A stretch of DNA of 32,894 bases from an uncultured Bacteroidota bacterium (GTDB taxonomy: Bacteria; Bacteroidota; Bacteroidia; Flavobacteriales_D; Crocinitomicaceae). The stretch covers positions 1-32,894 of the forward strand of contig CALCCB010000078.1 of the NCBI GenBank assembly GCA_937899625.1, written 5' to 3'. Each line of letters opens with the position of its first letter. The first letter of the stretch is position 1. Shown here piece after piece: positions 3,104-27,884 of this stretch. The position numbers and the translations under genes were made by a program. The notes under the pieces are model-generated. The model did not search any database and had not been told where the DNA came from. It saw only the letters and a list, made by a program, of their open reading frames with translations.

Positions 3104-5962
3104 ATGAGACTTTTACACCTTTTATTGCTTACTGTTTTAGTCAGTTCATCAACTTATGGACAAAGTCTGAAATGGGCTACAACAATTCCTGTTTCAACCA
3201 CCTTTTCGTCTGCCAGAGCAACAGATCTTAATTCAGATGGCACTTCCGACATCGTTATTGGAGGGGGACTTGACGGTTTTCCAGAATTACATGGGGTGAA
3301 CGCAATAAATGGAGTTGACGGAACGCTACTTTGGAATTTTCCAACCGATGAAGAGATTTTTGGAAGTGCTCAGTTTTACGATATTACAGGCGATAACATT
3401 GAAGATGTTTTCATTGGTGGAAGATATGCAGAATTTTATGCAATAAACGGAGCTACAGGAAACATGATCTGGGAATTCTTCCCGTACTCTCCTACTGCAT
3501 CTGTAGATAGTGGTTGGTTTAATTTTTACAATGCTCAATTAATTCCAGATCAAAATTCAGACACCTACCCAGATCTATTAACTTCCAATGGAGGAAACCA
3601 TTCATTGCCTTCATGGGATACTTTGAGAGAACCCGGGTATCTAATGATTCTCGATATTCTGGACGGTAGTTTAATCGCAAAAGACACAATGCCTGACGGT
3701 GAGGAAACCTATTGTTCACCTGTTTACTACAACTACCTGGGTACTACCTACATTATTTTTGGTTCAGGAGGTGAAAACGATGGCGGATCACTTTGGAGAG
3801 TGACACTTACTGAGTTAATGAATAATGACATTTCCAATGCCCAAATGCTTGCAACAGATCCAGATGTCGGATTTATTGCCCCTTCATCGTTGGCCGATAT
3901 AAATGGAGATGGAGTTCTTGACATAATAAATCAAGCTTACGATGGGACCGTCAGAACATTTGACGGTATTACAGGAACTCTTATATGGCAAAACAATAAT
4001 CCTGGGACTGAATCAAGTGCTGCACCAGCAATAGGTAATTTCACCGGAAACTCGACTCCTGACGTCTTTTGTGCTTTAAGCAAAGGAACTGGTCAGACAT
4101 ATACAGATTATTATCAGTTGATGATTGATGGTAGTACAGGACAGACAATCTGGAAGGACAGTATTGGTCAAATGCATTTTGCATCGTCCTCCGCAGCAGA
4201 CCTAGACTTCAATGGAAGAGATGAGGCTATCATTTCGGTTAATTACCACAACGGAACAAACTTTAGTCACCAGCTGCATTCGATTGATTTCGATAATGAT
4301 TTAGTGAACAATCTTTACCTTGCAGAAGGTGGCGTTAACCTCGCTAGTACTCCATTGATTGAAGATCTTGATGGGAATGGAATTTTAGATTTTGTTTTTG
4401 CTTTTCGCGCAGATAGCATTAATCCGATGGGCCAGAATGGTTTTAAGATCAGATGTATAGAAGGAACAAATTTAGAAACTGGAGTTGGAATTGCGTGGGG
4501 AGGATATATGGGAACAGGATATGACGGCGTGTACAATTATGAGGGTCAACCATGCGGAAGCGTAAGTGTATCAGCTTCTATCAATAATATATCTTGTAAT
4601 TATTTCTCTGATGGTTCGATCTCATTGACTCCTATGAGTGGTATAGCTCCATTCACCTATCTGTGGGAGTCTGGACAAACAACGAGTGCGATCAGTAATC
4701 TTTCAGCAAACACTTATTCAGTGATAGTAACTGATGCCACAGGTTGCTTTACAGAGCAAACGTATACGCTGACAGATCCATTTGTCATTAGTATCGGAGG
4801 AATTATAACACCGACTTGCCCTGGAGATCTAAATGGACAGGCAACCGCCAATAGCTCGGGATGTCCTTGTACATTCAGCACCTGCATTTTTGAGTGGGAT
4901 AATGGCGTATTGGGTAAAACTGGAACCGGTCTTTCAGCAGGTTGGAATTATGTGACGATCACCCACATGAATGGCTGCGTGCTGACTGACTCAGTATACA
5001 TTCCTGAACCTTATCCTATTGTAGACAGTACAATTGTAACAAACATTCAATGTGCAACAGCTCCAGGAAACGAAGGAACCATTGAATTAATTCTAAATCA
5101 ACCTGCATTCACAAATCTACTCTGGAACACAGGTGAGACTTCTACTTTAATTGATAGTCTTTCGGTTGATGACTATTATGTCTTATTAAGCGACAACAGA
5201 GGGTGTGCAGATTCAATTTTTGTTTCTATTACCTCAAACGATACTATAATCATTAACTATTCGGTGGATCAACCATTATGTTCAAATTCTGCTGACGGAA
5301 TGATCACTTCGCAAGTCACTGGAGGAGTCCCGCCTTATTCCTACAATTGGTCCAACAGCGAACAAACCTCTCAAATCTCCGGTCTTACAGCAGGTAACTT
5401 TTCTCTGGAAGTAACGGATGATGTTGGATGTACTGTTTCTTCGGACAACATAGAAATCATCTCCCCTGAGCCGATTACAGTACAGTTCTCTTCCATTTTA
5501 AATGATGCCACAGGTAATTGCACAGGTTATGCTGAAGCAATAGTCGACAATGGAACACAACCATATACCTACGATTGGTCGCCATCGAGTTCGACAACCG
5601 AAATAAATGATAATTTATGCGAAGGATATAATGTCCTAGTCATTACTGATCAAAATGGTTGTACTGCTACAGATAGCGTTTTAATACTCAATACAGTTGG
5701 CCTTATTGAAAATGGTATAGATAATATCTCGATATATCCCAATCCATTTTCTAACCAACTACAGATAAATTGTGACCCATCAAAAGTCGAACAAATATCT
5801 GTAACTGACATTTCAGGTAAAGTAGTGTTTGAAAATGCAGCAATCGAATCGATAAATGTGATTGATTTGTCATATTTATCTTCTGGCTCATATTTTGCTG
5901 TAATAAAATTGAAAGATCAAACTAATATCAGTTTTAAACTTGCCAAGGTGAGTGACTATTAA
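3104..5962 (+). CDS. Secreted FG-GAP/beta-propeller protein with five SprB-type repeats and T9SS sorting domain
   Basis: The 952-residue protein starts with a signal peptide (MRLLHLLLLTVLVSSSTYG). Residues about 30-480 carry repeated Asp-rich Ca-binding-like loops (DLNSDGTSDIV, DITGDNIEDVF, DINGDGVLDII, DLDGNGILDFV). These are typical of FG-GAP/VCBS seven-bladed propellers, here with PQQ-like WNF/W strands. About residues 485-865 hold five divergent SprB repeats, each with a central YxW(S/E)xG strand and a C-terminal VTDxxGC. The last 85 residues (from ISIYPNPFSNQL to FKLAKVSDY) form a type A T9SS sorting domain, so the protein should cross the outer membrane and stay on or leave the surface. 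ATG 3104 gives the best signal peptide. TAATTTTA (3066-3073) is a possible -7 box. A binding or adhesin role is inferred, and no catalytic motif is seen. Confidence 0.88.
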   Translation: MRLLHLLLLTVLVSSSTYGQSLKWATTIPVSTTFSSARATDLNSDGTSDIVIGGGLDGFPELHGVNAINGVDGTLLWNFPTDEEIFGSAQFYDITGDNIEDVFIGGRYAEFYAINGATGNMIWEFFPYSPTASVDSGWFNFYNAQLIPDQNSDTYPDLLTSNGGNHSLPSWDTLREPGYLMILDILDGSLIAKDTMPDGEETYCSPVYYNYLGTTYIIFGSGGENDGGSLWRVTLTELMNNDISNAQMLATDPDVGFIAPSSLADINGDGVLDIINQAYDGTVRTFDGITGTLIWQNNNPGTESSAAPAIGNFTGNSTPDVFCALSKGTGQTYTDYYQLMIDGSTGQTIWKDSIGQMHFASSSAADLDFNGRDEAIISVNYHNGTNFSHQLHSIDFDNDLVNNLYLAEGGVNLASTPLIEDLDGNGILDFVFAFRADSINPMGQNGFKIRCIEGTNLETGVGIAWGGYMGTGYDGVYNYEGQPCGSVSVSASINNISCNYFSDGSISLTPMSGIAPFTYLWESGQTTSAISNLSANTYSVIVTDATGCFTEQTYTLTDPFVISIGGIITPTCPGDLNGQATANSSGCPCTFSTCIFEWDNGVLGKTGTGLSAGWNYVTITHMNGCVLTDSVYIPEPYPIVDSTIVTNIQCATAPGNEGTIELILNQPAFTNLLWNTGETSTLIDSLSVDDYYVLLSDNRGCADSIFVSITSNDTIIINYSVDQPLCSNSADGMITSQVTGGVPPYSYNWSNSEQTSQISGLTAGNFSLEVTDDVGCTVSSDNIEIISPEPITVQFSSILNDATGNCTGYAEAIVDNGTQPYTYDWSPSSSTTEINDNLCEGYNVLVITDQNGCTATDSVLILNTVGLIENGIDNISIYPNPFSNQLQINCDPSKVEQISVTDISGKVVFENAAIESINVIDLSYLSSGSYFAVIKLKDQTNISFKLAKVSDY

Positions 5963-11633: not shown

Positions 11634-11724
11634 AAATCATTTTTGACTAATCGATAAATCCCCTTCGAATGAGTACATTTACTCAACTTTGGAAAACCAA
11701 TCTATTGATCAACATTTATTTCTT

Positions 11725-12672
11725 TTGACAAGACTGCTTTTTTTATATCTATCTGTTCTTCTTCTCTTTTCATGTACGAAGGAAGTAGAAATTGATATTC
11801 CCGGATATCAGGAGCAATTGGTGGTTGACGGAAGAATTGAAACAGATGGTTTCCCAATTGTAATGCTGTCGAAATCACAAAACATTTACGCTGCAACAGA
11901 TCTTTCAAGTTATTTACAATCCTTCATTGAAGATGCTCAAGTCATGGTGTCAGACGGCTCCCAATCCTATGAACTTCAGTTGATGTATGCCTCTGAGCTT
12001 CCAGAGGAATCTCAAAAGATTTTGGCAGAAATGCTGGATGTAGAATTTGATGAAGTATTCTTCTTCCCTATTCCAGTATATTCGACAATAGATCCAGGAG
12101 CAAAAGGTGCTGTGAATAAAACGTATACTTTAACGATCGATCACAATGGCAAAACGTATTCTGGAGAAACCACTTTATTCCCTCCAGTCCCATTGACCGA
12201 ATTATGGTTCGAACCTGAATCTTCGAATCCAGACTATTCATTCCTGTACGCCAAATTATCTGATCCACCCAATCAGTATAATGCGTATAAATGGGAAGCG
12301 AAAAGAATTAACATTCAAGCCAATGGTGAAGAGTTGGATACACTATTCAGAACCCATATAAACGCCTATTTCGACGATCAGTTCTTTGATGGAATTACGT
12401 TTGAATTTGCTACTCCCAACAGACAAAAGAGAAAAGATCCTAATTTGCTATCCGACTATAAAAGGTATTATCACGTTGGAGACTCTGCGGTGGTTAAGTT
12501 TTCCAGAATGGATAGAAACGTATTCGATTTCTTTGAAAAAAAGGCTGAACAAGTTAATTCTTCAGGGAATCCATTTGCTACCCCGGTTAACATTCCAAGC
12601 AACATAAGTGGCGCTTTAGGTATATGGGCCGGATTTTCCCCGTGTTACGATACCGTATATTTTACTCCTTAA
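11725..12672 (+). CDS. DUF4249 family lipoprotein
   Basis: The product of about 315 residues starts with a lipoprotein signal MTRLLFLYLSVLLLFSC (lipobox Cys17), followed by TKEVEIDIPGYQEQLVVDGR. That sequence and the later KTYTLTIDHNGKTYSGETTL are characteristic of DUF4249 proteins. DUF4249 lipoproteins of Bacteroidota usually sit beside a TonB-dependent outer-membrane receptor, but no such receptor is present here. The start is TTG 11725, chosen because it gives a normal lipoprotein signal. An upstream TTG at 11689 would overlap a -7-like CAACTTTG (11684-11691). The nuclease gene follows after 9 nt, so the genes are probably co-transcribed. The function is unknown, and an outer-membrane ligand role is only inferred. 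Confidence 0.75.
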   Translation: MTRLLFLYLSVLLLFSCTKEVEIDIPGYQEQLVVDGRIETDGFPIVMLSKSQNIYAATDLSSYLQSFIEDAQVMVSDGSQSYELQLMYASELPEESQKILAEMLDVEFDEVFFFPIPVYSTIDPGAKGAVNKTYTLTIDHNGKTYSGETTLFPPVPLTELWFEPESSNPDYSFLYAKLSDPPNQYNAYKWEAKRINIQANGEELDTLFRTHINAYFDDQFFDGITFEFATPNRQKRKDPNLLSDYKRYYHVGDSAVVKFSRMDRNVFDFFEKKAEQVNSSGNPFATPVNIPSNISGALGIWAGFSPCYDTVYFTP

Positions 12673-12681
12673 CCATTCCCG

Positions 12682-13527
12682 ATGAAACTTCAAGAATTGA
12701 TTGTCACTAAAGCGAATGGTGAACAGGTACTCTTTTCACTTGATAAACTTCGTAATTCACTCGCTAATGCCGGAGCCTCTGAAGAAATCATTGAAAAGAT
12801 CGTAAAAGACATTTCTCCAAAGCTTTATCAGGGAATTTCGACAAAAAAGATCTACCGATGGGCCTTCTCCAAATTGAAACAAAGGTCATCACACCTTGCT
12901 GCAAAATACAAATTGAAAAATGCCATCATGGAGCTTGGTCCGGACGGATTCACATTTGAACAGTTCGTTAAAGAGCTCTTCATCTCCATGGGATATAAAA
13001 CAAAAACCGGTGTTATTGCTCAGGGAAAATGTGTGAAGCATGAGATCGATGTGCTCGCCTCAAATGAGTCAGAACATCACCTTGTAGAGTGCAAATATCA
13101 TAGTCTCCCCGGAAAGATCAGCGATGTAAAAGTTCCACTGTACATCCATTCGCGATTCAACGATGTCGCCTTCAATTGGAAAAAGGACAATGCCTTTTCG
13201 GGTAAACAATTAGGCGTTTATGTGGTGACAAATACGCGCTTTTCTCCTGATGCCGAGCAGTATGCCCGTTGTGCCGGCTTGGAACTGATCTCCTGGGATT
13301 ATCCGTTACACAAAAACATAAAAAGCCTGATCGATCAATATGGGCTTTATCCGTTAACGTGTTTAACAACATTGACCGAAGCAGAGAAAAAATCACTTGT
13401 CGACAAGAAATTTATTTTCATCAAGGAACTTTGGAAGAATCCTTCCATTCTAGACGTATTAAACTTGAGCTTATCTCGTTTGACAACTGTTAAAGACGAA
13501 ATTGAATTAATTATTAACTCCAAATGA
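12682..13527 (+). CDS. ATP-cone domain fused to PD-(D/E)XK (Mrr-like) restriction endonuclease
   Basis: The 281-residue protein has an N-terminal ATP-cone (about 5-85). VTKANGEQVLFSLDKLRNSL and the later LKQRSSHLAAKYKLKNAIMELG match the nucleotide-binding cone that senses ATP/dATP in ribonucleotide reductases and NrdR. A PD-(D/E)XK nuclease domain follows (about 88-220): a helix with E94 (FEQFVKELF), D123 in HEIDVLA and E136-x-K138 in HHLVECKYH. The C-terminal 60 residues are helical. I infer a DNA-cleaving or DNA-processing enzyme gated by nucleotide level; a role in defence or genome maintenance is speculation. It overlaps the next gene by ATGA (4 nt), indicating translational coupling, and follows the DUF4249 gene by 9 nt without a visible promoter. 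No methyltransferase is nearby. Confidence 0.83.
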   Translation: MKLQELIVTKANGEQVLFSLDKLRNSLANAGASEEIIEKIVKDISPKLYQGISTKKIYRWAFSKLKQRSSHLAAKYKLKNAIMELGPDGFTFEQFVKELFISMGYKTKTGVIAQGKCVKHEIDVLASNESEHHLVECKYHSLPGKISDVKVPLYIHSRFNDVAFNWKKDNAFSGKQLGVYVVTNTRFSPDAEQYARCAGLELISWDYPLHKNIKSLIDQYGLYPLTCLTTLTEAEKKSLVDKKFIFIKELWKNPSILDVLNLSLSRLTTVKDEIELIINSK

Positions 13528-13811
13528 CGCCTGAACAGGAAGAAAAGCTTAAGGAACTGATTGTCAAATACAATGACATCCTGATAAATTCCATGCGACT
13601 CGCTGTGGCAGAAGACCTGATCAATCTGATCATTTTGAATCGAGACGATTCTGATTTTAAATTAAAAGATACACTTCAGAATAAAGAGGAACTGAATCAA
13701 TTCATTTTAAAAGAATTCCTCAAACAAAATAGTTCATCTGTGATCCATGAGTTAAAGAAAATGGACGAACGAATTCCGAAAATCAAAAAACCGTCGAAAG
13801 GGAAAAAGTAA
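13524..13811 (+). CDS. Small hypothetical protein translationally coupled to the ATP-cone nuclease
   Basis: The family is not recognised. The 95-residue protein is charged and apparently all-helical. Residues 1-50 include a leucine/isoleucine-rich helix (LAVAEDLINLIIL). The C-terminus is strongly basic (PKIKKPSKGKK), which could contact nucleic acid. No signal peptide or membrane helix is present. Its ATG lies inside the stop of the nuclease gene (ATGA overlap), so the two proteins are very likely made in similar amounts and may act together, for example as subunit, regulator or inhibitor. It is too long and too conserved in composition to look like a random reading frame, but only the coupling speaks to its role. 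Confidence 0.7.
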   Translation: MTPEQEEKLKELIVKYNDILINSMRLAVAEDLINLIILNRDDSDFKLKDTLQNKEELNQFILKEFLKQNSSSVIHELKKMDERIPKIKKPSKGKK

Positions 13812-17256: not shown

Positions 17257-20200
17257 ATGAACCATTCCTTTTTAGGGAAAGTTGCTTTCCTTGTTTGTAC
17301 GACCTTATCTATTTCCTTTTCAGTCAATAGTCAGATCACAGTAAATAATGGGTACACCGCCCAACAGCTGGGAAATAACTTGGCTGGAAACAATGTCAAT
17401 ATCTACAACGCCACCATTTCTGGGGGAGCCATTCAATATGGTCTTTTTCAATATACCGGTACTGATCTTGGGTTGAATTCAGGGGTCATCTTAAGTACAG
17501 GAAGTATTTTCGATGCTGTTGGCCCCAATAATCAGGGAGGTACATCTACGAATGTTGGAGGTCCCGGTAATGCAGATCTGACTGCATTAGCAGGTTTTCA
17601 AACCAACGATGCAGTTGTTTTCAACTTTGACTTTGAGGTTCAAGGTGATGAGATCGAATTTAAGTTTGTCTTCCTTTCTGAAGAATACAACGAATACGTA
17701 AACTCAGGATTTAACGATGTTTTTGCTTTTTACATCTCCGGGCCTGGTATTACAGGTCAGCAAAATTTAGCTGTAGTTCCTGGTACTACTACTCCTGTTA
17801 CGATCAACACCATTAACAACAATTCCTTCTGGCAGTTTTACAACGATAATACAGACAACGGAACCAACATCGAATATGACGGATTCACAACATTGATGAC
17901 AGCTTCAAAATCAGGTCTGCAACCATGTGGGATCTATACTTTATCCCTAAGAATAGCGGATGGAAGTGACTCAGCATTCGACTCGGCGGTACTACTTCAG
18001 GAAAACTCTCTAGTTCAGTCGAACATTTCAGCTTCGAGCAATACTTTTTCTGGAAACAATACCGCTTTGGAAGGATGTATCGAGGCAAGTTTCACATTTG
18101 CTCTGGATAGCGCACTTTCGTATGATGTAACTATTCCGATTGGAATTGGAGGTACAGCTACAAATGGCGTAGATTACAGCTTCATTGATAATTTGATCAC
18201 CATCCCTGCGGGACAATTGTCCTCTACACTAATCATTGATGCCGTTGCAGATGGTTTGACAGAAGGACAAGAAGTGGTTGAGCTTTATTTCACTCCTTCT
18301 CCGTGTGAACCTGTAGATACCGTTTTGTTGTATATTGATGATTACATTCCTCTTGAATACAATGTTGACCCTACTGATGTGACATGTTTCGGAGCAGATA
18401 ACGGTCAAGTTGACCTCACGGTTTCTGGTGGTATTTCACCATATACACTTACTTTAACTGACTCTTTAACTGGAGATGTGAATTCCTTTACCACCTTTCC
18501 TGTTGCCGGACTAACACCCGGAACGTACTATGTCGACGTGATTGATGGTTATGGATGTTCTGCAGAGGATATTATCGCAGGAAACATCTTTGATGCAGGA
18601 ACCACATTCATTCCTGATGGTCAGGGAGGTTCATACAGTAGCACCATAAATCTGGGAGGATTCGGGGCATCTCAATCGATTCAAAGTCCCGATCAGATTC
18701 AGTCAATCTGTGCCACTCTTGAACATTCAAGAATTGGTGAATTAGAAATTACGCTAACTGCTCCAAATGGTCAAATGATAACCCTTAAACAACAACCCGG
18801 AGGAGCAACTTGTAACCTTGGTGAACCTTGTGCTGTTGGTCCTACAGATGGTGGTTCAGGAAATTCGAACACGGATCCCGGTATTGGTTACAATTACTGT
18901 TGGCAGACCATTTCTACCTATGCTACAATGGTGGGTGAATCGAACAACTTCACATACACGTATACAAACCCATGTGACGGAAGTCAGCAGAGTGATAAAT
19001 ATCTCCCATCAGGATCGTATCAACCCTACGAAGGATTTGACAATTTTATTGGTGCGCCATTGAACGGAGGTTGGACAATTACCGTTACTGACCATATTCC
19101 AAATAACAACGGTTATATATTTGACTGGAGTATTGTCCTTCAGGCTAATCCGCCAGATTCAGTATTTACTATTTTGGAGCCTGCTGGACCAGCTATTTCA
19201 CATACAAGTGTTTCTCCTGCTTGTGGTGCATCCAATGGTTCCATCAACTTAACAGTAACAGGGACAGGGCCATTCACTTATTTGTGGAACAACGGTGCAA
19301 CAACCCAAGACCTTACTAATATCCCTGCAGGAGCTTATGCCGTGACAATTACGGGTCCTAATGCATGTACCTATTCATATGAGGTTGATCTTTCGAACAA
19401 CGGAACTTTGACTATATCCGGTATTGTTACGAATGAGGTTTGTGCATCCCAAAACAACGGAGCTATTAATGTTACGGTTGCGGGAGGAACAGCTCCAATT
19501 TCATACAACTGGTCGAACGGCTCAATAGCTGAAGATGTTTCAGGATTGTCACCTGGATCATATACGGTAAACGTGACAGACGCTACAGGATGTTTAGGTG
19601 TACAAACGTACAATGTCCTAGGAGCATCAAACATTAATATTTCTGGAACCACGGTGAATGAAACGTGTGGTGACGAAGACGGATCCATCTCTGTAACGGT
19701 GAATGGAGCAGTTGCCCCAATCACTTATTCATGGAGTAATGGCTCAACAACTGAAGATCTTGACCAGATCAATCAAGGGACTTATGTTTTAAGTCTTACC
19801 GATGCCAACGGCTGCAGTGCGACTGCTTCTTATAGCATCGTTAACCTTGTTGGTAACTGTGTGCCAAACTGTGATCTCGCAATCACCAATCAAACGGTTA
19901 CGAATGAATCTTGTGGAAATTCAAACGGGTCAGTTAATATCACGGTATTTACTACCAACGGACCTGCGCAATACTTATGGAATAATGGTGTAACCACAGA
20001 AGACATAAGCGGACTTCAAGTTGGTACTTATGCGGTGACCATCACGGACAATGAAGGTTGTACTGTAAATCAACAATATACAGTGAGCAATCAGTCTGGT
20101 TCCCTTTCAATAACTGGAATTAACACGACCAATGAAAACTGTGGGAATAACCAAGGTGGAGCTGACGCTACTATCACAGGAGGTGTCCAGCCTTATTTTT

Positions 20201-23200
20201 ACTCATGGTCAAATGGCTCAACAACTCAGGATCTGACGGGTGTTGCGGCAGGTACTTATACCCTTACCGTGACTGATGCATCTGGATGTTCGGTTTATCA
20301 AACAGTAACTATTCAGAATATCTCTGGAACTCTTACACAAACCTATGGAAATGCAGTGAATGAAGTATGTTCAAATTCAGCAGGATCGATCGATATTCAA
20401 ATTTCAGGTGGTCAAACTCCATATACCTATTTATGGAGTAACGGAGCGACAACTCAAGATCTAACAGGTCTTAGTGCAGGAACATACTCTTGTACAATTA
20501 CTGATAATAATGGTTGTACGATTAATACGCCAATTTATACTGTTGGAAACAATTCAGGAACACTCGCAATTTCGAACATTGACACTGACAACGAAATATG
20601 TACAAATGGACTTGGTGATATTACAGTGACCATTTCGGGAGGAACGGCGCCGTATACATTCCTTTGGAATACAGGGGCAACAACGCAAAACCTTCCTAAT
20701 CTATCTGCAGGAACCTATTCATTGACAGTGTCTGACAACTCAGGTTGTTCGTTGAACAGCGGAAATCTGGTTATCCTGAATGAAAGTGGAACACTACAGT
20801 TAACCGGAGTGTCGACCTTTGATGAATTGTGTGGAAATGGAACCGGGTCTATCAATGTCAGCGTTACAGGTGGAACAGCGCCTATATCGTATTTATGGAG
20901 CAATGGATCTACCTCACAGGATATTACCAATCTATCCGCTGGAGACTATTCACTGGTAATCACGGATTTAAATAACTGTCAAATTGATGTCAGTACATCC
21001 ATTAATAATGATCCAGGTAGCTTAACCATCGACAACATGGTGACTACGATTGAACTTTGCGGTCAGATGAATGGCGCCATAAATCTTGTCTATTCTGGAG
21101 CCGGTGCACCTTCCTCATTTAACTGGTCGAATGGAGCTACTTCAGAAGACATTACTGGAATTTCTGCAGGAACATACACCGTTACAATAACCGATGTAAA
21201 TGGTTGTCAGGCAAGCTCAAGTGCTGTTGTAAACAACATTGCCAATGGAATGACGATTGCATCATCCATCGTGGAAAGTGAATTCTGCGGAAACGGTGCA
21301 GGTTCAATCAATTTATCGATATCAGGTGGAACTGCGCCATTGACCTACTTATGGAGCAATGGTCAAACGACAGAAGATCTGAGTGGATTATCAAGTGGCA
21401 TTTATTCGTGTACAATTACAGATGCAACGGGATGTGAATTGAATGCGGGGCCATTTGAAGTGGTAAATTCGCCAGGAACTTTGAATGTATCTGTTCAAAG
21501 TATCATTAACGAGGTTTGTGGAAATAACGGTGGGTCGATCAACGCATCTGTAACAGGTGGAACAGCCCCTTATTCCTACTCATGGTCAAACGGTGCAACT
21601 ACTGAAGATATTTCAGGACTTTCTGCTGGAACATATACATTGAATGTAACCGGAAGCAATGGTTGTACAGATATGGTAAGTGCTGTTATTGACAATTTAT
21701 CAGGAACACTAACCGCATCTGCTATCATAAATGACGAAATCTGTGGAAACAATAACGGAAGCATCAACCTTACTGTCTCCGGAGGAAATGCCCCATACAC
21801 TTATTTATGGTCTAATGGAGCAACCACACAGGATCTTTCCGGTTTATCAGCTGGAAACTTCTCTGTAACTGTTTCAGATGCTTCTGGGTGTTCATTTGCA
21901 AGTGGTAATTACGTCATAAACGACAATTCAGGAAACTTCGACGTAACAGGAATAAACGTAACGAATGAAGTCTGCGGTGACGGCATGGGGTATATTGACC
22001 TCATCGTTGCAGGTGCAAACGGAACTGTTTCATATTCATGGAGCAACGGTTCGACCACTCAAGATTTATCTAACCTTTCGTCAGGTACTTATTCAGGAAC
22101 TGCAACTGATATCTCAGGATGTACGATCAGTTTCTCGGCCAGTGTATTCAATGAAGCGGGCCAAATGAATGCTTCTTCTGTCAACGTCTCTCCTACTTGT
22201 AACACAGCAAACGGATCAATCGACCTTACAGTCCTTAATGGATCTGCTCCATTAAGCTTCTTATGGTCCAATGGATCTACTACTGAAGATATCGCATCGA
22301 TTCAAAGTGGAAACTACACGGTTAACATTACAGACAATAATGGATGTATGTTGACTTACACAACAACATTGTCTGATCAGGGAATACCAACAATTGGAGG
22401 TATTTCCATTACAGATGAAACTTGTGGTAACTCAAATGGTTCGATCACAGTGAACGTATCCGGAGGAACTGCACCTTATACCTACTCCTGGTCAGGTGCA
22501 ACGTCGAATCCATGCTGTTCATATACGCTGGACATGCAGGATCTCGGAAACAGCTGGAATGGAGCTTCGATCGATGTTCTAGTTGACGGAACCAATGCAG
22601 GAAACTTTACGGTATTCGGTGGAGGTCAGAATACGGGAACTTTCAATGTTTGTGCAGGAGAAAGCATTGAATTGATATGGAACCCAGGTGGATTTGATAA
22701 TGAAGTATCATTCGATCTTCTTGACGGATCAGGAAATATTGTCTTCTCACAAGGAGCAAGTCCTACTCCAGGGACCATTTTCACAGGCACAGGATCATGT
22801 GTCACACAACCTTTAACAGGCCCTTCAATTTCGAATTTACAAGCTGGAAACTACAATGTCACGGTTACAGACGCAAACGGATGTCAGGATAGCACTGTGA
22901 TTACTGTTAATAATACCTCAGGAAATTTACAGATCACTTCTGAAGTCGTTTCAAATGAAACATGTTCTGATAATAATGGTTCGATTAACATTTCGGTTTC
23001 AGGAGATGCTCCATTTGTGTATTCATGGAACAATGGTTCAGTTTCTCAGGATCTAAGTGACCTAAATGAAGGCCTTTACACAGTTACTATTTCTGATCAA
23101 TCAGGATGTTCATTGACTGAATCGTATACGATCAATAATATCACCAATGGGCTAGTACTTGACAATGTTGTGATTTTAGAAGACAACTGTGGACAAGGAA

Positions 23201-26013
23201 CAGGATCGATCGATATCTCTGCTTCTGGAGGAGTTGGATCTTTGTCTTATATCTGGAACAACGGGTACACCGCAGAAGACATTTCTAACTTAGCAGCAGG
23301 ATCTTATAGCGTAATCATCTCAGATGGCTCGAATTGTTCACTCGAAGAAACTTTTGTTGTCACCAATAATACAGGTACTCTGGTTGTTTCGGAGGTGACC
23401 TCGAATGAAACATGTGGTTCCGGAAACGGAACAATTGACATTACAGTAACCGGAGGGGTTGCACCTTATACTTTTGACTGGTCAAACGGTGCTGCAACGG
23501 AGGATCTTGGAGGACTAAACAGTGGATCTTACGAGGTTGTGATCACAGATAATAACGGATGTATCTTCTCGTCGAGTTATTCGGTTATTTCGGCAAGTAG
23601 TGGTATACTTCTAACAGCTACTACGACTGGCGATAACTGTGCAAATAATTCAGGCGCCATCAACCTAACGGTATCAGGAGGTACTTCTCCTTATACTTAT
23701 CAATGGTCAAATGGACCTACAACTCAGGACATGAACAATCTTTCTTATGGTCCTTACACGGTTGTTGTAACAGATGCCAACGGATGTAGCGAAACGGCAA
23801 CCTACGCGGTTCAGTCTACCGGAAATATCAACCCATCAAATGTGGTGATCACTCCAGAAACCTGTGGAAATTCAAATGGAGGAATAAATCTTTCGTTTGC
23901 CGGTCCAGGCCAACCAAATCAATATTTGTGGAGCAACGGTGCAACAACTCAGGATATCACAAATGTACCTGCCGGTTGGTACTGGGTTCAAATGTCAACG
24001 ACATTTGGTCCGGGTGGTGGATGTACTGTTATGGACTCTTTCTTTGTTGCTTCTACTCAGGGAACGTTATCAATTGATTCTTTGATTGTCACTCATGAAA
24101 CCTGTTCATCTGGAAATGCAGCTATAAACGCATATATTTCTGGTGGAACTGCTCCTTACAGCTACCAATGGTCAAATGGGTCAACGACAGAAGATCTATC
24201 TGGAGTATCGGCAGGAACATTTGCTTTAGTTGTTACGGATAATAATGGTTGTGAATCAACTTTATCTGAGGAAATCCTTAATCTGACTTATGGGTTTGGT
24301 GTTTCTGCTTCCATCATTGCCAACGAGCAATGTGGTGATGCATCAGGAGCGATCGATGTTACCATTTCAGGTGGTTCTGCTCCATATATTTACTTATGGA
24401 ATAACGGAGCAACAACTGAAGATCTAAGCGGATTGAATGGTGGAACCTATTCCCTTACTATCACTGACAACAATGGCTGTTCTGTAGATAATGAATTCGT
24501 TGTTACCAATAATACGAATGGTTTTGAGATCACTTCATCAGTTATCGACGAAACTTGTGGAAATCAAAATGGAGCAATTGACCTTACGATTTCAGGAGGT
24601 TCTTCTCCGATCACTTTCAACTGGTCAAATGGATCAACTACAGAAGATCTGAGTGATTTATTAGGAGGAAACTATACATGTGTAGTAACGGATAATACAG
24701 GATGTATCATTAACATTGATGAAACTGTTCAATCGTTCAGCTCGACATTTACAATGGGCACGTCGATCATTACAGATGAAAATTGTGGTGATGCTACCGG
24801 TAGTATTGAACTTAATCCAACCGGAGGAACTGCACCTCTTACCTATTCATGGGATCTATCGAATCCATGTTGTTCATACACGTTGAACATGTATGACTTA
24901 AATAACAACGGATGGGGAGGAACACCAACGCCAGGAGTCATTGTATCTGTAAATGGAAATGTAGTTGGAACGTACATGGTTCCAGTTGGAAACGGTAACT
25001 CATTTGAATCAGTGACCATTCCAGTGTGTACAGGTGATGAAATAAGCTTCGAATATGTCGCTGCAAACCAGAATCAAAACAACACTTATGAAGTTCTTGA
25101 TGGAGATGGTAATGTGATCTTTGAAGATGGCCCTAATCCATTTGCTGGAGTTGCATTCACAACAACATCGGCTTGTTCTTTTCCAAATGTAAATGCGCTG
25201 ACAGGATTGAACGCTGGTGATTATCCGGTTACTATTACTGACGCTTATGGTTGTCAAGTGACTGATGTATTCACTGTGAATAATATTACAGGAGACTTTG
25301 CTGTTACAACAACATCGATTGGAACAATTTGTAATGGAGATCAAGGATCGATTGACCTTACGGCAACAGGAGGAACATCACCTTATACCTACCAATGGTC
25401 CAATGGTCAAACCACTGAAGATATAACTGCGATAACTGCTGGATCGTATGATGTAACAGTAACGGATAACGTGGGTTGTATGATCAACGAGACAATTGTG
25501 GTAGGCAATACTGGCAATCCAGTTGACTATACAGGAGTAGTTATTTCACATGCTACATGCGCAACTTGTAACGATGGTTCGATTGATATCAGCCTAGCCG
25601 GCAACTCAGCTCCTTATACCTTCTCTTGGTCAAGCTCTGAAACGACAGAAGATATTTCAGGTCTTACACCGGGTGATTATTCGGTTACTGTAACCAACGG
25701 CGACGGATGTGACACAACGATCACCTTCACTGTACTCAATACTGCTGGATTGGATGATATTACTAATATTCAATATCAGATTACTCCAAACCCTAACAAT
25801 GGTCAATTTACCCTAACAGCTGTTAACTTCACTGGGGATCAGCTTGTTGTAAAAGTATTTGACGCAACTGGTAGAATCGTATACGATAGTCCATTGAAGT
25901 ATGTGCAGGGAGAGTCAATCGACATGAACCTTCAGTTCCTTGAAGCTGGTTCTTATATGCTTTCTATTGAGGGATCAGGTAGAATATCCCAGAAAAGAAT
26001 AGTCATTTATTAA
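17257..26013 (+). CDS. Giant SprB-repeat surface protein, T9SS-exported, 2918 residues
   Basis: The layout is as follows. Signal peptide to about residue 26. Choice-of-anchor L domain (about 27-250, with GLNSGVILSTG and FLSEEYNEYVNSGFNDVFAF). Calx-beta-like domain (254-363, GTATNGVDYSFI then DGLTEGQEVVEL). One divergent SprB repeat (366-447). A proprotein-convertase P-domain (about 448-635, LEHSRIGELEITLTAPNG then GGWTITVTDHI). About 26 SprB repeats (649-2828) of roughly 75 residues. A T9SS type A sorting domain (about 2836-2918, ITPNPNNGQFTL). Each repeat has one Cys near its start (NEVCGNNNGSI), a WSNGxTTxDLxxLxAGxY core and VTDxxGC. Two repeats carry an extra inserted domain. The order resembles SprB-like adhesins of gliding Bacteroidota, so adhesion or gliding is inferred. 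It is followed by a strong terminator and is transcribed alone. Confidence 0.93.
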   Translation: MNHSFLGKVAFLVCTTLSISFSVNSQITVNNGYTAQQLGNNLAGNNVNIYNATISGGAIQYGLFQYTGTDLGLNSGVILSTGSIFDAVGPNNQGGTSTNVGGPGNADLTALAGFQTNDAVVFNFDFEVQGDEIEFKFVFLSEEYNEYVNSGFNDVFAFYISGPGITGQQNLAVVPGTTTPVTINTINNNSFWQFYNDNTDNGTNIEYDGFTTLMTASKSGLQPCGIYTLSLRIADGSDSAFDSAVLLQENSLVQSNISASSNTFSGNNTALEGCIEASFTFALDSALSYDVTIPIGIGGTATNGVDYSFIDNLITIPAGQLSSTLIIDAVADGLTEGQEVVELYFTPSPCEPVDTVLLYIDDYIPLEYNVDPTDVTCFGADNGQVDLTVSGGISPYTLTLTDSLTGDVNSFTTFPVAGLTPGTYYVDVIDGYGCSAEDIIAGNIFDAGTTFIPDGQGGSYSSTINLGGFGASQSIQSPDQIQSICATLEHSRIGELEITLTAPNGQMITLKQQPGGATCNLGEPCAVGPTDGGSGNSNTDPGIGYNYCWQTISTYATMVGESNNFTYTYTNPCDGSQQSDKYLPSGSYQPYEGFDNFIGAPLNGGWTITVTDHIPNNNGYIFDWSIVLQANPPDSVFTILEPAGPAISHTSVSPACGASNGSINLTVTGTGPFTYLWNNGATTQDLTNIPAGAYAVTITGPNACTYSYEVDLSNNGTLTISGIVTNEVCASQNNGAINVTVAGGTAPISYNWSNGSIAEDVSGLSPGSYTVNVTDATGCLGVQTYNVLGASNINISGTTVNETCGDEDGSISVTVNGAVAPITYSWSNGSTTEDLDQINQGTYVLSLTDANGCSATASYSIVNLVGNCVPNCDLAITNQTVTNESCGNSNGSVNITVFTTNGPAQYLWNNGVTTEDISGLQVGTYAVTITDNEGCTVNQQYTVSNQSGSLSITGINTTNENCGNNQGGADATITGGVQPYFYSWSNGSTTQDLTGVAAGTYTLTVTDASGCSVYQTVTIQNISGTLTQTYGNAVNEVCSNSAGSIDIQISGGQTPYTYLWSNGATTQDLTGLSAGTYSCTITDNNGCTINTPIYTVGNNSGTLAISNIDTDNEICTNGLGDITVTISGGTAPYTFLWNTGATTQNLPNLSAGTYSLTVSDNSGCSLNSGNLVILNESGTLQLTGVSTFDELCGNGTGSINVSVTGGTAPISYLWSNGSTSQDITNLSAGDYSLVITDLNNCQIDVSTSINNDPGSLTIDNMVTTIELCGQMNGAINLVYSGAGAPSSFNWSNGATSEDITGISAGTYTVTITDVNGCQASSSAVVNNIANGMTIASSIVESEFCGNGAGSINLSISGGTAPLTYLWSNGQTTEDLSGLSSGIYSCTITDATGCELNAGPFEVVNSPGTLNVSVQSIINEVCGNNGGSINASVTGGTAPYSYSWSNGATTEDISGLSAGTYTLNVTGSNGCTDMVSAVIDNLSGTLTASAIINDEICGNNNGSINLTVSGGNAPYTYLWSNGATTQDLSGLSAGNFSVTVSDASGCSFASGNYVINDNSGNFDVTGINVTNEVCGDGMGYIDLIVAGANGTVSYSWSNGSTTQDLSNLSSGTYSGTATDISGCTISFSASVFNEAGQMNASSVNVSPTCNTANGSIDLTVLNGSAPLSFLWSNGSTTEDIASIQSGNYTVNITDNNGCMLTYTTTLSDQGIPTIGGISITDETCGNSNGSITVNVSGGTAPYTYSWSGATSNPCCSYTLDMQDLGNSWNGASIDVLVDGTNAGNFTVFGGGQNTGTFNVCAGESIELIWNPGGFDNEVSFDLLDGSGNIVFSQGASPTPGTIFTGTGSCVTQPLTGPSISNLQAGNYNVTVTDANGCQDSTVITVNNTSGNLQITSEVVSNETCSDNNGSINISVSGDAPFVYSWNNGSVSQDLSDLNEGLYTVTISDQSGCSLTESYTINNITNGLVLDNVVILEDNCGQGTGSIDISASGGVGSLSYIWNNGYTAEDISNLAAGSYSVIISDGSNCSLEETFVVTNNTGTLVVSEVTSNETCGSGNGTIDITVTGGVAPYTFDWSNGAATEDLGGLNSGSYEVVITDNNGCIFSSSYSVISASSGILLTATTTGDNCANNSGAINLTVSGGTSPYTYQWSNGPTTQDMNNLSYGPYTVVVTDANGCSETATYAVQSTGNINPSNVVITPETCGNSNGGINLSFAGPGQPNQYLWSNGATTQDITNVPAGWYWVQMSTTFGPGGGCTVMDSFFVASTQGTLSIDSLIVTHETCSSGNAAINAYISGGTAPYSYQWSNGSTTEDLSGVSAGTFALVVTDNNGCESTLSEEILNLTYGFGVSASIIANEQCGDASGAIDVTISGGSAPYIYLWNNGATTEDLSGLNGGTYSLTITDNNGCSVDNEFVVTNNTNGFEITSSVIDETCGNQNGAIDLTISGGSSPITFNWSNGSTTEDLSDLLGGNYTCVVTDNTGCIINIDETVQSFSSTFTMGTSIITDENCGDATGSIELNPTGGTAPLTYSWDLSNPCCSYTLNMYDLNNNGWGGTPTPGVIVSVNGNVVGTYMVPVGNGNSFESVTIPVCTGDEISFEYVAANQNQNNTYEVLDGDGNVIFEDGPNPFAGVAFTTTSACSFPNVNALTGLNAGDYPVTITDAYGCQVTDVFTVNNITGDFAVTTTSIGTICNGDQGSIDLTATGGTSPYTYQWSNGQTTEDITAITAGSYDVTVTDNVGCMINETIVVGNTGNPVDYTGVVISHATCATCNDGSIDISLAGNSAPYTFSWSSSETTEDISGLTPGDYSVTVTNGDGCDTTITFTVLNTAGLDDITNIQYQITPNPNNGQFTLTAVNFTGDQLVVKVFDATGRIVYDSPLKYVQGESIDMNLQFLEAGSYMLSIEGSGRISQKRIVIY
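22507..22800 (+). other. Domain inserted within a SprB repeat, copy 1
   Basis: Residues about 1751-1848 start with NPCCSYTLDMQDLGNSWNG, continue with SIDVLVDGTNAGNFTVFGGG and FNVCAGESIELIWNPGGFDNE, and end near FTGTGSC. The segment interrupts a SprB unit right after its central YSWS strand. The unit then resumes with SISNLQAGNYNVTVTDANGC. It looks like an independent beta-sandwich with a CC start and a closing Cys. Confidence 0.75.
24862..25176 (+). other. Domain inserted within a SprB repeat, copy 2
   Basis: Residues about 2536-2640 start with NPCCSYTLNMYDLNNNGWGG, continue with VIVSVNGNVVGTYMVPVG, IPVCTGDEISFEYVAA and YEVLDGDGNVIFEDG, and end near TTTSAC. It interrupts a SprB unit at the same point as copy 1, after YSW. 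The unit resumes with ALTGLNAGDYPVTITDAYGC. It is clearly homologous to copy 1 but diverged. Confidence 0.75.
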
Positions 26014-27315: not shown

Positions 27316-27624
27316 TTATCTGATCTTAGACTGCAAGGAGGCCCAGCCACCGCCGTTGTGCACATCTTCATATCCTTTTGATATCAGAATGCTTTTCGCG
27401 GAAGCACTTCTCATTCCTGATGCACAGCAAGTAATGATTGCCTTGTCCTTTTTAAGTTTTCCCAGATTTTTATCCAGTGACTGCAATGGAATGTTGATAG
27501 AACCTTTAATGTGTCCACCATTGTATTCTGCAGGCGTTCTTACATCCAGGATCACAGCCCCATCCTTGACCATTTCTTTGAAGTCAACCTTGGTTCCTCC
27601 AAAAATACTACTTAACAATCCCAT
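27316..27624 (-). CDS. Single-domain rhodanese-like sulfurtransferase (second of pair)
   Basis: The 102-residue protein has a rhodanese fold: DVRTPAEYNGGHIKGSINIPL (about 27-48) and the active-site loop CCASGMRSA with catalytic Cys67 (CxxGxR). It presumably carries a persulfide for sulfur transfer or detoxification. A short N-terminal segment (MGLLSSIFGG) precedes the domain. Its ATG overlaps the stop of the preceding rhodanese gene by one base (TAATG), so translation is coupled. It is the last gene of a three-gene operon and is followed by a terminator. Confidence 0.93.
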   Translation of the reverse strand: MGLLSSIFGGTKVDFKEMVKDGAVILDVRTPAEYNGGHIKGSINIPLQSLDKNLGKLKKDKAIITCCASGMRSASAKSILISKGYEDVHNGGGWASLQSKIR

Positions 27625-27884
27625 TATTTATTGAGATTATAATTTACATCCAACCATGAACCACCATTTTCACAGCTAATACCTTGTGCCTTAAAATACA
27701 TGGTCGCTTGTCCACTTCTATTTCCACTAGCACAACAGAAAATGATCGGTTCTTTCATTTGCTTTAATTCATCTGCTCTGTCAACGATCTCCTGAAGAGG
27801 AATATTAACTGACCCCGCTACATGTCCTCCCATGTACTCTGCTCTAGTTCGAACATCTACAATTGTAAAATCTCGGTTTTCCAT
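27624..27884 (-). CDS. Single-domain rhodanese-like sulfurtransferase (first of pair)
   Basis: This compact rhodanese of 86 residues has DVRTRAEYMGGHVAGSVNIPL (10-30) and the loop CCASGNRSG, with catalytic Cys51. It begins directly with the domain and has no export signal. It lies 1 nt after the DUF6132 stop (TAGTATG) and overlaps the next rhodanese by one base. The two rhodaneses share the same DVRT, GGHxxGSxNIPL and CCASGxRS motifs, suggesting an old tandem duplication. A sulfur-handling role is known for the family; the specific substrate is unknown. Confidence 0.92.
   Translation of the reverse strand: MENRDFTIVDVRTRAEYMGGHVAGSVNIPLQEIVDRADELKQMKEPIIFCCASGNRSGQATMYFKAQGISCENGGSWLDVNYNLNK

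Follow-up and report, generated by a model that had tools for sequence, protein, structure and literature searches.

ATP-cones are known from work on RNRs and NrdR. In the cone of E. coli NrdA the nucleotide is contacted by K9, R10, H59 and K91, of which R10 and K91 are phosphate contacts, while T55 belongs to the coordination environment and K21 to a second site (PMC11447812). A further described relative of the protein reported here is AF1548 from Archaeoglobus fulgidus (PDB 1y88), a predicted endonuclease with D38, E51 and K53 as its catalytic residues (PMC1821046, GOS paper).

The window, which is the whole stretch of 32,894 nucleotides that we analysed, encodes on its forward strand a protein of 281 aa (12682..13527) that combines both elements: an ATP-cone (approximately residues 5-80; 12694..12921, +), a PD-(D/E)XK nuclease core of the Mrr/AF1548 type (approximately residues 86-205; 12937..13296, +) and a C-terminal helical domain (approximately residues 213-279; 13318..13518, +). 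Pfam recognises the cone at residues 7-76 (PF03477, E 2.6e-6, 28.3 bits against a gathering cut-off of 25.8) and the core at residues 88-144 (Mrr_cat, E 6.5e-8, 33.1 bits against a cut-off of 21); no NCBIfam model matched the protein. In a phmmer search residues 95-250 matched 1y88 with E 1.5e-27. The AF2 model, which was built on an alignment of 57 sequences, has a mean pLDDT of 93.9, and its residues 86-281 superpose on 1y88 with Z 21.7 over 183 of 184 residues (rmsd 3.6, 32% identity), so that the two-domain fold of 1y88 is predicted for the nuclease as well. The alignment with 1y88 and the helices of the model define the C-terminal domain as the counterpart of that in AF1548, and from the SCOP class of AF1548 we take it to be HhH-like. 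Residues 1-80 of the model match the cones of NrdR and of NrdA from RNR (Z ~9-11, rmsd 1.5-2.4). A profile of the cone only returned nothing except designed repeat proteins when it was run against PDB sequences; the match of the cone therefore rests on Pfam and structure.

The fusion of an ATP-cone with a PD-(D/E)XK nuclease, proposed in an earlier note made from the sequence alone, is thus upheld by sequence, predicted structure and conservation. The same can be said of the catalytic pattern D123 and E136-x-K138, which the earlier note had called intact: none of these three residues varies among the 57 homologues, and neither does E93. The family of AF1548-like ATP-cone nucleases, to which the protein adds a new member, is known but has been little characterised. 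In the literature that we searched, which takes in few of the subscription journals, no published description of a fusion of an ATP-cone with an Mrr or other nuclease domain and no record of cleavage activity for AF1548 or its relatives was found, and an earlier description of the fusion is possible.

The structural comparison also bears on the idea that the protein is a DNA-repair or genome-maintenance nuclease of the EndoMS/NucS kind, regulated by the dNTP supply. The folds of a Pyrococcus repair endonuclease and of EndoMS are indeed similar to the model (Z ~11), and an ATP-cone would be well suited to the sensing of dATP. However, these matches reflect the shared PD-(D/E)XK core and lie far below that of AF1548, and no repair gene recurs among the labelled clusters of neighbouring genes. 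We therefore consider a repair function unlikely.

Several residues of the cone (K10, G13, T54, Y58 and K79) are invariant or nearly so among the 57 homologues, with T54 present in 56 of them. In an alignment of the cone with the NrdA and NrdR encoded by the E. coli genome, K10, K22 and T54 fell at the positions of NrdA K9, K21 and T55, and these equivalents are conserved in the nuclease family. The position of H59 is occupied by Y58 and that of R10 by A11, and K91 has no clear counterpart. Binding of ATP or dATP by this cone and nucleotide gating of the nuclease are both plausible, but the equivalents of R10 and K91 are not conserved, and nucleotide binding may thus differ from that in NrdA or be lost.

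The nuclease gene overlaps the start of the next gene, which codes for a basic protein of 95 aa (13524..13811, +), by the four nucleotides ATGA. The earlier note had seen in this overlap the sign of a two-component unit, in which the small protein could be an antitoxin, an inhibitor or a specificity factor. The overlap is real, and the arrangement is retained in the genome G014, whose nuclease is 97% identical. Nevertheless, these two genomes are the only ones within the genus where both genes are adjacent. Of the 25 other genomes of the genus, 14 have the 95-aa gene (two of the copies being partial), mostly without the nuclease; in G005 and G007 the two genes are present at different sites, and in G002 and G003 the nuclease is present while no 95-aa gene was detected. 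Outside the genus the 95-aa gene has a clear match in G052, which belongs to another family (E 5e-23). The co-occurrence search that the earlier note had proposed found the small gene absent beside almost all homologues of the nuclease, with none at the 51 nuclease loci drawn evenly across the phylum, a result which that note had itself counted against a coupled pair. Neither conserved adjacency nor co-occurrence, as would be expected of a toxin-antitoxin or other two-component system, is thus seen, and the two genes are separable. The 95-aa gene is genuine and forms a conserved genus-level family, but it is independent of the nuclease and is a chance neighbour; the two-component reading is largely refuted, and we give it hardly any weight.

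A further argument against such a unit comes from the sister genome G012. In the window the nuclease gene follows a gene for a DUF4249 lipoprotein (11689..12672, +; Pfam DUF4249). In G012 nothing separates the DUF4249 gene from the 95-aa gene, the stop of the former and the start of the latter sharing one base, and downstream of them lie the same 211-aa-type and 869-aa genes as in the window. The flanks are therefore intact without the nuclease, which behaves as a clean presence/absence unit; it may have been gained in the genome of the window or lost in G012. The five nuclease copies of the genus that were included in the tree form one clade (support 100/97), so there is no need to assume that the genus acquired the nuclease more than once, and its three locations in the genus suggest that it was relocated or lost. 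In the tree a copy from a MAG with the label Gammaproteobacteria falls among those of Bacteroidota, which may reflect either transfer or a mislabelled contig. As one part of our best overall explanation, which we put forward at slightly less than an even chance, the nuclease in the window is an orphan copy lodged between the gene for the lipoprotein and the unrelated gene for the 95-aa protein. No Pfam family matched the 95-aa and 211-aa proteins above the cut-off.

Other features of the window are recorded here for completeness: an ORF of 2918 aa with many similar repeats (17257-26013), a neighbour of it with SprB repeats and a Por secretion tail (3104-5962) and two short tandem rhodanese-like ORFs on the minus strand (27316-27884), the latter named from a reading of the sequence only.

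The earlier note had reported no methyltransferase, and neither a methyltransferase nor a defence gene was found among the window proteins scanned. The genes flanking the nuclease are the DUF4249, 95-aa and 211-aa genes, and thus no cognate methyltransferase or specificity subunit stands beside it, as it would in a restriction-modification system. One could argue that the protein might still act on its own, as an anti-phage or modification-dependent restriction nuclease under the control of (d)NTP levels, considering its Mrr-type core, its patchy distribution, the presence of AspBHI, MspJI and the CRISPR ancillary nucleases Can2/Cdn1 among its fold neighbours and a similarity, albeit weak, to the ZorD and CARF-PDDEXK models of PADLOC. 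However, no relatives of the nuclease were found in phages or viral contigs, its links to mobile elements being two plasmids, and PADLOC gave no match among 8 further window proteins. The 69 proteins near the nuclease loci matched 21 PADLOC models, each by one protein; many of these are DrmC models, so that the matching proteins number a handful or fewer, and the Pfam families among the 69 are mixed and largely metabolic. A location among defence genes, or the enrichment near defence islands that the earlier note had suggested looking for, is therefore not evident from these raw counts, which stand without a matched background set. Since the recurrent context consists of metabolic and stress genes together with an RNase, we regard an anti-phage role as improbable, and the earlier proposal of an undescribed defence system is not borne out.

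This recurrent context is best illustrated by a metallo-beta-lactamase (MBL) gene of the beta-CASP type, whose product matches the ribonuclease TTHA0252 with E 5.8e-68. The named genomes that were scanned contain 80 nuclease loci, 46 of which have the beta-CASP MBL gene. In an even draw across the phylum the nuclease occurs in 49 of 296 genomes, and a comparison of coordinates in these showed that a beta-CASP MBL of the close clade adjoins the nuclease at 32 of 54 loci. Conversely, 32 of the 36 close-clade genes sit next to a nuclease and the next ten MBLs by score do not, the clade of 36 being delimited by a score cut that was set after the list had been viewed. The gaps between the two genes are mostly 6-65 nt. 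Thus the pairing with the beta-CASP RNase is a better lead than the 95-aa gene. In the genome of the window the beta-CASP homologue lies on another contig (C19), next to a gene for an FAD-linked oxidase, and the argument from context is therefore borrowed from relatives.

A small protein of 84 aa with a CCGGH-like end is encoded between the nuclease and the beta-CASP gene at L130:5963-6217 and at 19 other loci, mostly of Flavobacteriaceae; its kinship with the 95-aa protein was considered and rejected (hhalign probability 0.2%).

The tight adjacency to an RNase could be taken to mean that the nuclease processes RNA together with it. The nearest folds of known activity are nevertheless mostly DNA endonucleases, although RNA is conceivable as a substrate given the CRISPR ancillary nucleases among them, and we find this reading about as improbable as the anti-phage one. 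Among the 80 loci the other recurring neighbours are genes for universal stress proteins, PRPP synthetase, the thymidine phosphorylase family and 2-hydroxyacid dehydrogenase, as well as for phosphofructokinase and a metal P-type ATPase, the last two and some others being names read from sequence and not based on profiles. On two plasmids, from Pontibacter and Criblamydia, the genes for the nuclease, MBL, thymidine phosphorylase family protein and PRPP synthetase stand in a row (NUC-MBL-TP-PRS).

Around these loci two additional arrangements were observed. The Criblamydia plasmid NZ_LK031773.1 (L140) has the nuclease operon with genes for phosphoketolase, glycogen phosphorylase, acetate kinase and metal export, near a site-specific integrase. 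At L174:7185-8720 (also at L172 and L175) a gene that joins an ATP-cone to a putative glucoamylase domain (PF10091) lies one gene downstream of the nuclease, and in L174 the gene in between is glutaredoxin-like.

Our preferred reading, held tentatively and with not quite even confidence, is that the protein of the window is a DNase of the AF1548/Mrr type which works on its own, is gated by nucleotides and serves nucleic-acid turnover under stress or starvation. The N-terminal cone would bind ATP or dATP. Like the cones of RNR and NrdR, it would then shift the oligomeric state or the packing of the domains, which would switch the attached nuclease, while the C-terminal domain probably grips DNA. 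Because the wider family lies beside the beta-CASP RNase and genes for nucleoside phosphorolysis, glycolysis, universal stress and metal export, controlled turnover of nucleic acids or clearance of damage under energy or metal stress appears to be the most likely role, as far as gene neighbourhoods can suggest one. A broader proposal, to which we give somewhat less credence, is that the nuclease and the adjacent beta-CASP RNase form an undescribed energy-sensing module, which on a drop in ATP would break down DNA and RNA for salvage. Such a module would be widespread in Bacteroidota, plasmid-borne and often accompanied by nucleoside phosphorylase and PRPP synthetase, and the window would hold an orphan, relocated nuclease of it. 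If the gating is true, a nuclease under an ATP-cone would extend the kinds of output that such a switch controls, coupling the energy state of the cell to the cutting of nucleic acids. The link to the beta-CASP RNase replaces a chance neighbour with a concrete candidate partner, and the result for the window corrects an inference that had been drawn from operon overlap.

Compared with the known systems, the ribonuclease TTHA0252 is a beta-CASP MBL like the usual neighbour of the family, whereas none is encoded beside the nuclease of the window. The proteins annotated as 'ATP cone domain-containing protein' on the Pontibacter and Criblamydia plasmids (WP_237151220.1, WP_176454803.1) have the same length and architecture as the window nuclease at ~44-45% identity, but they are part of the NUC-MBL-TP-PRS operon and the window copy is not. 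AF1548 has the nuclease domain, the C-terminal domain and the D/E-x-K triad in common with the window protein; the 1y88 entry (199 aa) aligns from its residue 3 at residue 86 of the latter, and thus the ATP-cone is without a counterpart there. The cones of NrdR and RNR, in turn, share with that of the window the fold and the equivalents of K10 and K22, differing from it in the R10 and K91 of NrdA; what the cone is attached to there is a Zn-ribbon or a reductase, whereas in the window protein it is a nuclease.
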